Shown here: in pieces, positions 35,177-37,982 of the stretch
Layout: every line of letters starts with the position of its first letter
Numbering within the stretch: the stretch's first letter is position 1
Assembly: GCA_030538425.1 (NCBI GenBank)
Contig: JAUNTZ010000017.1
Span: 1-49,378 of the forward strand
Source: Paracoccus sp. (in: a-proteobacteria)
GTDB taxonomy: Bacteria; Pseudomonadota; Alphaproteobacteria; Rhodobacterales; Rhodobacteraceae
Direction: 5' to 3'
Length of the DNA stretch: 49,378 nucleotides
Program-made: the position numbers and the translations under genes
Notes under the pieces: model-generated
What the model saw: only the letters and a program-made list of their open reading frames with translations
Databases searched by the model: none
Told to the model about the DNA's origin: nothing

Positions 35177-35204
35177 AAAGCCCCGGAGCGATCCGGGGCT
35201 TTTC
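35177..35204 (+). terminator. Rho-independent terminator after ctaD
   Basis: AAAGCCCCGG (35177-35186) pairs with CCGGGGCTTT (35193-35202) around AGCGAT, followed by T residues. It lies 20 bp after the ctaD stop. Confidence 0.9.
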
Positions 35205-35216
35205 CATGAGGACCCC

Positions 35217-35352
35217 ATGCCTGATCTTATCCCGGAACTGAGCGTCACCGATTTTGCGGCCTCGCTGCGGTTTTATCGCGATCTGCTGGGCTGGCACGCA
35301 TGAGACCGGACAGCGGCAATTCGTCATCGCGGACCCGGACGGCTATTACTCC
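35217..35352 (+). pseudogene. Broken VOC/glyoxalase-like gene
   Basis: After GAGG, an ATG at 35217 opens MPDLIPELSVTDFAASLRFY and continues RDLLGWHA to a stop at 35301-35303, the start of a bleomycin-resistance/glyoxalase fold protein. Immediately after, in the +1 frame, ETGQRQFVIADPDGYY is the typical C-terminal metal-binding segment of the same family. The middle (about 60-70 residues) is missing and the frame is shifted, so an internal deletion has destroyed the gene. The family-typical C-terminus then breaks off at about 35352, where AT-rich foreign sequence begins. Confidence 0.8.
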
Positions 35353-35393
35353 GGGTCATCAGGTCAACTCTTGGCTCACGGGGGATTAAGTAA

Positions 35394-36008
35394 ATGAGGT
35401 TTTTCCGCTTATTAGATGATGTTGAGTTCCCGGGCAGGTGGCATTTGTCAACGATCAGTGATGCTGATAATTGGCGGCTGGCTCGTCCGCCAGTACTTGG
35501 AATGGATGATCCGCTCCGTGATCAAGTTTTGAAAGTCGGGCTTCGGCAGTCAGGCACTCCTTTAGACTATTCTTTGGCTGGATATGCAGGTGTTCCGGTA
35601 GTTGGCTTTAAAGTACTTCAGGCGATCTCTCGGCTTGACGGCTTAACCACAATTCCTGCGAAGGTCGAAGGCTTTCAACAAAAAACATCATATCACATTC
35701 TGCATTTTTGGGACGAGGCGGATTGTGTTGATGAGGGGGCGTCACAATTTGAAAAGTACCAAGTTAATGACCCAGTACGACCTGATCTCGCGGGCAATTA
35801 CAGCGCATTCGTTCGCCTGGTTATTGATCCTAGTCGAACTCGCGGAAAGCACATCTTCCGTCTGGCTCGCAGCGGAGTTGAGGTTGTCATCAGCGAAGAA
35901 GTTAAGCGCCGTTTTGAGGATGCGGGTGTGACGGGCGCTGTCTTTCAAGACGTAACAGGTGATCATAAGCCTCTGCCTGATCACTCCGCCGGCTCCTCGG
36001 GTACCTGA
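35394..36008 (+). CDS. Imm11-like (DUF1629) immunity protein, orphan
   Basis: I read this 204-residue soluble protein as a member of the Imm11/DUF1629 immunity family. Supporting stretches are YHILHFWDEADCVDEGASQF, then RLVIDPSRTRGKHIFRLA and VVISEEVKRRFEDAGVTGAVFQDV, the usual C-terminal pattern. Such proteins normally neutralise a polymorphic toxin encoded next door, but no toxin gene is present. The base composition is markedly more AT-rich than the flanks. The ATG overlaps the TGA that ends the decayed VOC frame (ATGA), and GGGGG lies upstream. It is probably a transferred or relic immunity gene. Confidence 0.7.
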   Translation: MRFFRLLDDVEFPGRWHLSTISDADNWRLARPPVLGMDDPLRDQVLKVGLRQSGTPLDYSLAGYAGVPVVGFKVLQAISRLDGLTTIPAKVEGFQQKTSYHILHFWDEADCVDEGASQFEKYQVNDPVRPDLAGNYSAFVRLVIDPSRTRGKHIFRLARSGVEVVISEEVKRRFEDAGVTGAVFQDVTGDHKPLPDHSAGSSGT

Positions 36009-36149: not shown

Positions 36150-36635
36150 ATGCCCTATAGATGGCAGGACAACCCCGGTCGCGCGCGGCTGGTGGCATGG
36201 CCGCACCGCTCATTGCCGCGGCATGGTTTTGTCTGGGTCATCGGGTTGATGGCGGGGTTTCTCAGCCTGCCGCTGCTGGCGGTGACGGGAAGCCCGATCC
36301 TGTGGGGCTTGCTGCCCTTTGCGCTGCTGGCGCTTTGGGGGCTGTGGTTCGCGATCACCCGCAGCTATCGTAGCGGCCAGACGCATGAGGTTCTGCTGCT
36401 CGACACGGGCAGGCTGCACCTGACCCGCCACGATCCGGGGCGCGCGCCGCGCGAATGGCAGGCAAACCCCTATTGGGTGCGCGCCATGATCCGCCCCGGC
36501 CCGGTCGAGGATTATCTGGTCCTGACCGGCGGTGACGAAGGCGGGCGCGCGGTCGAGTTGGGCGCATTCCTGTCGCCCAAGGAGCGCCGCGCCTTGCGCG
36601 ACGAACTGGCCGCCCGGCTTGCCGCGCTGCGCTAG
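36150..36635 (+). CDS. DUF2244 family membrane protein
   Basis: This 161-residue protein is read from the ATG at 36150; the frame upstream is spacer. It opens MPYRWQDNPGRARLVAWPHR, then has two adjacent membrane helices (about 30-70) and a cytosolic domain with YRSGQTHEVLLLDTGRLHLTR and REWQANPYWVRAMIR, the conserved DUF2244 core (W-x-x-NP-x-W-V). It ends in LGAFLSPKERRALRDELAAR. The function is unknown; I recall family members near cytochrome oxidase genes in alphaproteobacteria. It overlaps the stop of the convergent GNAT gene by four bases. Confidence 0.9.
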   Translation: MPYRWQDNPGRARLVAWPHRSLPRHGFVWVIGLMAGFLSLPLLAVTGSPILWGLLPFALLALWGLWFAITRSYRSGQTHEVLLLDTGRLHLTRHDPGRAPREWQANPYWVRAMIRPGPVEDYLVLTGGDEGGRAVELGAFLSPKERRALRDELAARLAALR

Positions 36636-37129
36636 AACAGGCGGCCCATGACAAGCGTATCGACAAAAACCCCCTCGCGCAGGGCGTCGGCGCGCAGCAA
36701 TCCCTCGGTCTCGAAGCCGTGCTTTTCATAAAGCGCAATCGCGGCGGCATTGTCGGCATAGACCTCAAGCTGCAGCTTGCGCAGCCCCAGCCAGTCTCGC
36801 GCCTGCACGATCAGCGCCGACAGCATCGCGTCACCCACCCCGCGCCGCCGGAAATCGTCGCGCACCGCCATGCCAAGCTCCCCGACATGGGCGCGGCGCG
36901 GGTTGGGATTGCCGTTGAGCCCCGCCTCTCCGACGATCCGGTCCCCGGCGACGGCCACGATGCTGACACGCGTATTGCGCGCCGCCAGAATCTTGCGGTT
37001 CGCCTCGACCGACATGAAGGGGCGGCGCAGCGTGCCATGGACGACGCCGGGCATGTTCAGCAATTCGGTCAGCCCGACCGCGTCCTCGGGTTCGAGCGCG
37101 CGCAGGGTAAAAGGGGGGTGGTCACTCAT
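36632..37129 (-). CDS. GNAT N-acetyltransferase, YhhY-like
   Basis: This acetyl-CoA-dependent acetyltransferase of 165 residues starts at 37129 (MSDHPPFTLRALEPEDAVGL); the frame upstream to 37162 runs into a hairpin. LLNMPGVVHGTLRRPF is the YhhY-type N-terminal block. ELGMAVRDDFRRRGVGDAML is the acetyl-CoA loop (RRxGxG/A), and YADNAAAIALYEKHGFETEG is the C-terminal strand-helix. YhhY acts on amino acids and peptides; the substrate here is unknown. Upstream on its strand lies a promoter, a putative leaderless 26-codon micro-ORF and a stem-loop, so expression may be controlled by attenuation or upstream-ORF translation. Confidence 0.88.
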   Translation of the reverse strand: MSDHPPFTLRALEPEDAVGLTELLNMPGVVHGTLRRPFMSVEANRKILAARNTRVSIVAVAGDRIVGEAGLNGNPNPRRAHVGELGMAVRDDFRRRGVGDAMLSALIVQARDWLGLRKLQLEVYADNAAAIALYEKHGFETEGLLRADALREGVFVDTLVMGRLF

Positions 37130-37201: not shown

Positions 37202-37282
37202 TCAGACAGCCCCGACCGACCCGCCCAAAGGGAGGAGACGCAGCGCAACGCGCAGGGTCGGGCAGGGAGTGATCGGTGTCAT
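37202..37282 (-). CDS. Putative leaderless leader peptide, 26 aa (cassette 1)
   Basis: This short ORF begins MTPITPCPTLRVALRLLPLG and ends in GSVGAV, 73 bases before the GNAT start. It has six Leu in 26 residues. No Shine-Dalgarno precedes it. Instead the -10 box TATCCT ends six bases before the ATG, so transcription should begin at about the A of the ATG, giving a leaderless message. Two diverged tandem copies upstream keep the same six-base spacing. I infer a regulatory upstream ORF; no experimental support is known to me. Confidence 0.5.
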   Translation of the reverse strand: MTPITPCPTLRVALRLLPLGGSVGAV

Positions 37283-37288
37283 GCGGCG

Positions 37289-37318
37289 AGGATAGTCGGG
37301 TGGGCGCGGGTGTGTAAA
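37289..37318 (-). promoter_or_regulatory. Candidate promoter of GNAT cassette
   Basis: On the minus strand TTTACA (37313-37318) and TATCCT (37289-37294) are separated by 18 bp. The predicted start of transcription coincides with the micro-ORF ATG at 37282. The -35 match is weaker in the two upstream cassettes, suggesting that this one is the active copy. Confidence 0.55.
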
Positions 37319-37361
37319 GGGGTTTGAGAGAGATGGGGTGCCCGCCGCTCAGAGGTAGGAC

Positions 37362-37433
37362 CTAAAAAGCCCTGGCTAGGGCAGGGGCCGGAGAGGAACG
37401 CGCAGGGCCGGGTCTGGGAATAATCCGTGCCAT
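37362..37433 (-). CDS. Putative leader peptide, 23 aa (cassette 2), ending in a terminator
   Basis: This is an ORF of 23 codons, MARIIPRPGPARSSPAPALA then RAF, with TATCCT (37440-37445) six bases before its ATG. Its final codons form the arm of a GCCCT/AGGGC hairpin, and its TAG stop closes the T tract of that terminator (37364-37382). It looks like an attenuator-type leader whose transcript ends within itself. The upstream -35 region is poor. It may be a decayed copy. Confidence 0.4.
   Translation of the reverse strand: MARIIPRPGPARSSPAPALARAF
37364..37382 (-). terminator. Small rho-independent terminator in cassette 2
   Basis: On the minus strand GCCCT-AGCC-AGGGC (37382-37369) is followed by five T (37368-37364). 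It is a compact hairpin overlapping the end of the cassette 2 micro-ORF and would prevent read-through toward cassette 1. Confidence 0.6.
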
Positions 37434-37576
37434 GCGCCAAGGATAGGCGCGCGCAAAAGTGCTTTGAAATGGCTGGCAAAAGCAGGGTGGCGCATCGCAC
37501 AAACATAGTCGCGAAAGCACCGCCAAGACAGAAGGCGCCGTCTAAAGCGCAGTGTCTGGCAAGGCGCAATTCGTTT

Positions 37577-37591
37577 CACGCGCTGAGGATA
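37577..37591 (-). other. Cassette 3 start: -10 box and GTG micro-ORF
   Basis: TATCCT (37586-37591) lies six bases before a GTG at 37579 that opens KRIAPCQTLRFRRRLLSW, similar to the other two leaders. The frame stays open for 67 codons and runs into cassette 2 antisense-free spacer, ending at 37376. The GTG and weak -35 suggest a decayed copy. Confidence 0.35.
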
Positions 37592-37657
37592 GGCGCAGGC
37601 ACGCCTGTAAACGCGACCCCAAATGAGCCAAGAGCGGGCGCAGGTGCGAAAGCGCCC

Positions 37658-37846
37658 TTAATCGTCCTCGGCGGTCTCGGGTAAGTCGTCATGCGGGGTT
37701 GAGGCGAGCTTTTCGAGCTCTTCCTCGGTCATCGACTCATACATCTCGCGAGAGGCGCCTTGCAGGTCGCTGACCTTGCCCTCGCCGCGTTTGGCGGAGA
37801 GGGCGGCACCGGCGGCGCGTTGTTGGGCTTTGGATTTGGCGGCCAT
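37658..37846 (-). CDS. DUF3008 family small basic/acidic protein
   Basis: This 62-residue protein starts at the ATG at 37846, after AAAGGGGTTCACC. The Lys/Ala-rich first half (MAAKSKAQQRAAGAALSAKR) and acidic second half (YESMTEEELEKLASTPHDDL) are the DUF3008 pattern. The function is unknown; the composition suggests an intrinsically disordered, perhaps nucleic-acid-associated stress protein. The frame upstream of 37846 to 38032 overlaps prpE and an inverted repeat and is not used. Confidence 0.88.
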   Translation of the reverse strand: MAAKSKAQQRAAGAALSAKRGEGKVSDLQGASREMYESMTEEELEKLASTPHDDLPETAEDD

Positions 37847-37900
37847 GGTGAACCCCTTTCTGCCAAACCAACGCCCCGCCGCCGCTGGCGTTCCAAAGAT

Positions 37901-37958
37901 AAGTATTTCAGCACAGAAGAAGGCGATTTGCCCTGCGCTTCTTCTGTGCGAAATACTT
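37901..37958. terminator. Long inverted repeat downstream of prpE
   Basis: AAGTATTTCAGCACAGAAGAA (from 37901) is matched in reverse complement by TTCTTCTGTGCGAAATACTT (37939-37958), about 21 pairs with one bulged base and a ~16-base loop. No T run follows on the minus strand, but such a stem could stop or protect the prpE transcript. The right arm leads into the recurrent CCGCCGGAGGC motif. Confidence 0.6.
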
Positions 37959-37982
37959 CCGCCGGAGGCGACTTTGGCGCCG

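Follow-up and report, generated by a model that had tools for sequence, protein, structure and literature searches.

In this Paracoccus genome, a GNAT acetyltransferase gene appears to have had its promoter and 5′ leader tandemly triplicated, and we give about even weight to the reading in which the array has this origin and the unit nearest the gene (c3) is a leaderless leader through which GNAT expression is likely controlled after initiation. The array lies on the minus strand of the window, the 49,378-nucleotide stretch of Paracoccus sp. DNA that was analyzed, where a CoA ligase gene is followed by a DUF3008 gene, cassettes c1, c2 and c3, and the GNAT gene (Table 1). The best NCBIfam model for the GNAT protein is the N-acetyltransferase NF007527/PRK10140 (3.5e-27), which we take to be E. 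coli YhhY, but the match scores 95.2 bits against a curated cut-off of 236, and the protein is therefore not filed as a member of that family; the nearest solved chain is 2vi7, PA1377 (9.6e-32).

Two other features of this neighborhood were recorded. The spacer that separates the CoA ligase gene from the DUF3008 gene holds a near-perfect inverted repeat (37900-37961), with arms of ~20 bases by eye and a 12-base core, which is either terminator-like or a dispersed element. In addition, positions 35196-36008 contain a short fragment resembling the N-terminus of Ble (E 3.4e-4, under its cut-off) and then a low-GC ORF (GC 0.51) of the Imm11 immunity family (E 1.5e-12), an arrangement suggestive of a glyoxalase-type gene interrupted by an insertion.

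Table 1. Features of the array and its surroundings, and promoter-like elements of the single-copy leaders in relatives.
Feature	Coordinates	Strand	Details
Propionate/acetate-CoA ligase gene	39875-37983	minus	first in minus-strand order
DUF3008 gene	37661..37846	minus	upstream of array; PF11450 4.6e-30
c1 core (-17..+45)	37535..37596	minus	TATCCT 37586-37591, GTG 37577-37579, no good -35
c1 ORF, 67 codons	37376..37579	minus	TGT where c3 has its TGA stop
c1 weak terminator-like hairpin	37535..37550	minus	
c2 core (-17..+45)	37389..37450	minus	TATCCT 37440-37445, ATG 37431-37433
c2 ORF, 23 codons	37362..37433	minus	ends in T tract of its terminator
c2 intrinsic-terminator-like hairpin and T tract	37364..37382	minus	good terminator-like site
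c3 core (-17..+45)	37238..37299	minus	TATCCT 37289-37294, ATG 37280-37282, -35-like TTTACA 37313-37318
c3 upstream ORF, 26 codons	37202..37282	minus	candidate leaderless ORF; orthologous positions in L002, L050, L058
GNAT acetyltransferase gene	36632..37129	minus	downstream of c3; Pfam Acetyltransf_1 6.8e-19
DUF2244 gene	36153..36635	plus	convergent with GNAT; PF10003 6.9e-36
G019 leader			TTGCCG-N17-CATGAT-N6-ATG
G427 leader			TTGACG-N17-CAAGGT-N6-ATG
G542 leader			TTGACG-N17-CATCGT-N6-ATG

The initial annotation described three minus-strand cassettes of ~150 bp, each with a TATCCT box, six bases and a start codon opening a short ORF with a related N-terminus, and all three were found as described. 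The pattern TATCCT-N6-RTG occurs exactly three times in the window, always on the minus strand, at 37282 (c3, ATG), 37433 (c2, ATG) and 37579 (c1, GTG), with start-to-start distances of 151 and 146 bases, and the N-termini MTPITPCP, MARIIPRP and (GTG)KRIAPCQ conform to M-x-x-I-x-P. Shuffled windows contain the pattern 0.15 times on average and at most twice (100 shuffles). The promoter-like pair of c3, TTTACA-N18-TATCCT, scores 9/12, and this score drops to 8/12 in c2 and 5/12 in c1. Over the complete own genome the bare pattern does not exceed chance (16 matches versus 21 for a reversed control), and none of its 13 further sites beyond the array matches R2, a sequence model built from c1, c2 and c3; the signal is thus the homology of the copies and not a general box-to-start grammar. 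Elsewhere in this genome, loci L140 and L147 (~1501; G000:C41 and G000:C80) have TATCCTCAGGGGGTGAATTGGCC in common, followed by a G/C-rich hairpin; this dispersed repeat contains the same box-N6-GTG, is unrelated to the array and has no R2 match.

Alignment of the cassettes confirmed that c1, c2 and c3 are homologous tandem paralogues. In repeat family D1, 34 bases spanning box and start align at 71% and 76% identity to c2, and the local alignments were equaled by 0 (c2/c3), 0 (c1/c3) and 5 (c1/c2) of 1000 shuffle pairs. Over the core, from −17 to +45, the pairs are identical at 41/61, 48/61 and 42/62 positions, values that none of 500 shuffles reached for any pair. These alignment statistics, together with three matches in a 150-bp register, refute a chance likeness of unrelated GC-rich stretches, an explanation that would fit the chance-level frequency of the bare pattern genome-wide and to which we assign almost no probability. 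The constant spacing, which the initial annotation had considered hard to obtain by chance, is to be read differently: chance is indeed refuted, but by the alignments, whereas the equal box-to-start distance was mostly inherited by duplication and, because the copies are paralogues, does not represent three independent observations.

Given the spacing of 146-151 bases, the simplest history is duplication of a ~150 bp unit of which chiefly the core has stayed alike. Four of the six flank comparisons were shuffle-like (218, 215, 254 and 314 of 500 shuffles), and weak residual similarity was seen upstream of c2/c3 (11/500) and downstream of c1/c3 (4/500). This likeness of the cores between diverged flanks, as expected of a duplicated ~150 bp unit that is constrained mainly in its core, favors constraint on that segment, although gene conversion would look alike. 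The core covers at least 11 bases upstream of the expected +1 and 45 downstream, and carries neither a codon nor a fold signature, properties that would suit a DNA operator for a regulator, present three times. Such an operator is very improbable, since the repeat analysis of the window lists no inverted repeat within the core, the 146-151 base spacing corresponds to no tested operator arrangement, and the letters of the core are not kept in the orthologous leaders, which R2 misses.

What we regard as the strongest support for a leaderless message comes from relatives, in which a start codon at the expected +1 recurs before the same gene. Few genomes carry a close GNAT orthologue: matches were found at E <= 1e-20 in seven of 125 genus genomes including the own genome (the best after it being G019, 68% identity) and at E <= 1e-25 in six of 394 family genomes, again including the own genome (best G427, 58%). 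The GNAT orthologue is present in two of five genomes of the G427 genus, to which G542 also belongs, and a screen of 195 relatives of G427 at E <= 1e-30 found it in three, only one of which was new. G019, G427 and G542 each contain one unit directly before the orthologous GNAT gene, and the G427 leader reads identical to that of Frigidibacter sp. RF13 (L033). The letters of the boxes vary among these orthologous leaders, but A2 and T6 of the −10 element and the six-base gap are kept, and all six units (three paralogues and three orthologues) have A2 and T6 at N6 from the start codon; the −35 element matches at 4/6 or better in five of the six units and at only 1/6 in c1. Among 17,115 RTG sites from the window (both strands) and the fetched loci, the background frequency of A2, T6 and an equally good pair at N6 was 0.00012 for c3, 0.00093 for G019, 0.00397 for G427 and 0.00093 for G542, frequencies that are not fully blind because the orthologous ATGs were chosen by looking; a further caution is that G427 and G542 come from a single genus. 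Conservation of the box-to-start spacing, which the initial annotation named as a check on its proposal that the start codon is the expected transcription start, was therefore borne out by the six-base gap before GNAT in G019, G427 and G542; the selected peptides that it tied to this geometry found no such support, as described below. No leader of this kind was seen by eye before the more distant GNAT homologues (L003, L004, L051-L057 and L059). In addition, R2 does not recognize the leaders of L002, L050 and L058, so the tie of c1 and c2 to the orthologous leaders runs only through c3.

The leader also seems to evolve more slowly than fourfold sites, and does so without codon periodicity, as judged from raw counts in small samples. 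The leader tails of c3 and G019 are identical at 28/36 positions, compared to 38/70 fourfold sites of their GNAT genes, and the G427 and G542 leaders differ at 10/78 bases, compared to 29/87 fourfold sites of GNAT; at fourfold sites within the G427/G542 leader, 2/14 differ.

Among the 125 genus genomes searched, the triplication was found in the own genome only. BLASTN with the 451-base region returned the own genome plus one 74% match of ~70 bases in G001; by eye the locus of this match looks like coding sequence, and it was set aside. R2 found something at E <= 0.05 in 51 of these genomes, but only the three own copies scored above 22 bits (the next match had 21.7); the six best other loci (L061-L066) each lie in a stop-free frame of at least 120 codons and were not accepted, with the caution that a long open frame does not establish coding in DNA this rich in GC, and that L062 may by eye be intergenic. 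A structure model, R1, found something at E <= 0.05 in 52 genomes, the best being the own genome (4.4e-16), G019 (1.4e-15) and then G111 (6.5e-6); the own genome, G019, G427 and G542 match R1 by construction, because it was built from those four. The eight best R1 loci after the own genome and G019 (L082-L089) were likewise rejected, each lying in a stop-free frame of at least 120 codons. Across the 394 family genomes, R1 gave six matches at E <= 1e-4, namely the own genome, G427 and four at 1.1e-5 to 4.5e-5. In the R1 and R2 searches stricter filtering was applied, at the cost of weak matches. A search for the array in plasmids gave no match.

The neighboring genes are more widespread than the array. 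DUF3008 is present in 77 of the 125 genus genomes, and at 27 of 30 fetched loci DUF2244 lies on the opposite strand within ~1.5 kb of it; tblastn at 1e-5 placed GNAT between the two genes in the own genome and G019 only. The 28 other DUF3008 loci (25 of them with DUF2244 within 1.5 kb) had neither a GNAT match at 1e-5 nor an R2 cassette, and GNAT also adjoins DUF2244 in G427 and G542. Therefore, with no cassette at loci that lack GNAT, and with GNAT beside DUF2244, the leader and GNAT behave as one module. At L105 (1683-2335; G132) the gap between DUF3008 and DUF2244 is ~650 bases, longer than in most other loci; the long gaps in L105 and L116 contain no R2 match and no GNAT match.

The leaders of c3, G019, G427 and G542 are all open from the N6-spaced ATG to a TGA, over 26, 22, 25 and 25 codons, respectively. 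By eye, their differences in length are multiples of three and P-x-G-G recurs, a pattern that was not counted as a test because alignment A4 places some gaps otherwise. Within the array, a frame-breaking insertion of 1 nt sets c2 apart from c1 and c3, and c1 has lost the stop. The excess of synonymous changes that the initial annotation had named as a check on selected leader peptides was not seen: permutation of amino-acid identity gave 0.286 for c1/c3 and 0.407 for G427/G542, at a low power set by 34 and 10 changes, and the same permutation with the GNAT genes of G427/G542 as a control gave 0/1000. Differences by codon position were 9/10/15 (c1/c3) and 3/4/3 (G427/G542) in the leaders, compared to 17/11/52 in GNAT of G427/G542, and two of the changes at the eight differing codons of the G427 and G542 leaders are synonymous. 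These tests, weak as they are, thus give no sign of peptide selection, and the indel in c2 and the lost stop of c1 count against it as well.

The same losses would be accommodated by a tandem promoter duplication followed by decay, in which c3 alone is of consequence and acts as an ordinary promoter, c1 and c2 being remnants and the start codon at +1 playing no part. The fall in promoter-like score from c3 to c1, the undetected peptide selection and the restriction of the array to its own genome among 125 agree with such a history, but three relatives have the six-base gap to an ATG as well, the copies keep the core and not the −35 element, and the leaders resemble each other more closely than fourfold sites do, so we consider promoter decay possible but clearly the less probable account.

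Signals for termination differ among the units. By the criteria for a small RNA, c2 has a promoter-like pair and a terminator and c1 is weak on both, while no terminator-like site is listed on the minus strand between c3 and GNAT (37282 to 37129). When folded against shuffles, G427 (z −2.97, 0/200) is the single unit that folds clearly better; the others gave −1.57 (c1), −1.54 (G542), −0.61 (G019), −0.45 (c3) and 0.16 (c2), with no unusual fold in c3, c2 or G019 and none common to the three units of the window. The G427/G542 hairpin has one compensatory pair (17/64) and three of 26 pairs broken, and its substitutions respect the fold no better than random ones (2173/5000 random mutants were at least as stable and 3346/5000 kept as many pairs). 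A conserved hairpin is thus not supported, the folds being weaker or absent outside G427 and the substitutions random-like. The GGGCGGG of the leader can pair with a downstream CCCGCC(C), but shuffles paired as well in 485 (c3), 274 (G019), 129 (G427) and 687 (G542) of 1000 cases, the G019 and G542 counts using another GGCGG than intended. The leader ORFs contain no run of regulatory codons, that of G019 being leucine-rich and the other three not. The anatomy of an attenuator like the trp system that the initial annotation cited as a precedent was thus not demonstrated, there being neither a terminator-like site between c3 and GNAT nor significant alternative pairing relative to shuffles.

The promoter-like pair and good terminator of c2, the weak terminator of c1 and conservation without a codon signature would also be consistent with tandem non-coding genes for base-pairing small RNAs, for which the ATG or GTG at +1 is merely a purine start. 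However, c3 has no terminator, no relative of c1 or c2 was found in the 125 genus genomes, the three units have no unusual fold in common, and there is no Rfam match to the array, which makes small RNA genes unlikely. At gathering score, Rfam matched only a tRNA in the window; across the array, on the same strand, nothing scored better than sX13 at E 2.8, and L050, L058 and L002 had none up to E 1.

Leaderless leaders and leaderless messages have precedents among the α-proteobacteria. In Sinorhizobium meliloti, the trpL RNA has its 5′ end on the start codon (ATG) of a short leader ORF, and rnTrpL is a short RNA released by termination (PMC7298713, PMC10117765). As in that system, the expected +1 of c3 coincides with the ATG that opens a short leader ORF, and a structural gene of an alphaproteobacterium follows, a likeness drawn here from sequence. 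Unlike trpL, rnTrpL and peTrpL, the array has no run of codons for one amino acid, no terminator between leader and gene and no alternative pairing beyond that of shuffles, and its unit is triplicated. Its mode of action may resemble that of the S. meliloti trp leader, but it falls outside the definition of a trp-type attenuator. Messages that lack a leader are common in the class, with 375 leaderless mRNAs (9.6% of CDSs) in Caulobacter crescentus and 171 cited for S. meliloti (PMC4117421). The C. crescentus messages start on the start codon, as is expected for the array, but they are spread genome-wide, whereas the array is a tandemly repeated upstream ORF; the geometry alone is therefore unsurprising, and the tandem triplication is the unusual part. 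In the open-licence literature, no tandem leaderless leader was among the matches listed, and a search for leaderless messages with Rhodobacteraceae or Paracoccus denitrificans gave no match.

In the triplicated-leader reading that we prefer, c3, the unit nearest the gene, would drive a transcript that begins on the A of its ATG, and this transcript would provide a leaderless upstream ORF of 22-26 codons before GNAT, as the geometry in c3 and in the three relatives suggests. The paralogues c1 and c2 would have retained the −10 box plus the initial 45 transcribed bases while diverging, c2 in its frame and c1 by loss of its stop and −35 element; c2, and perhaps c1, would yield RNAs of ~50-70 nt that end at their own terminators, the RNA of c2 having ~70 nt. 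The c3 unit would probably regulate GNAT expression at a step after initiation, by means of ribosomes that occupy the leaderless ORF and so influence the message downstream. That the units are transcribed and translated, and that they act on GNAT at all, are in this sense predictions drawn from the observed homology, geometry and likeness of the cores. It is also conceivable, though unlikely, that copies of a leaderless leader budded off, with c1 and c2 persisting as separate short RNAs, with or without a peptide, that work in trans on the c3 copy or draw a factor away from it.

If the copies are inert, the array is merely a local duplication. If c1 and c2 make RNAs, this would be one locus showing a cis leader copied into standing small RNAs, a relation between leader and small RNA so far known from single attenuators that release one RNA (rnTrpL). 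The triplicated leader and its three single-copy counterparts, of which two belong to the same genus, also form a small comparative set for testing if an acetyltransferase is controlled by a leaderless upstream ORF.
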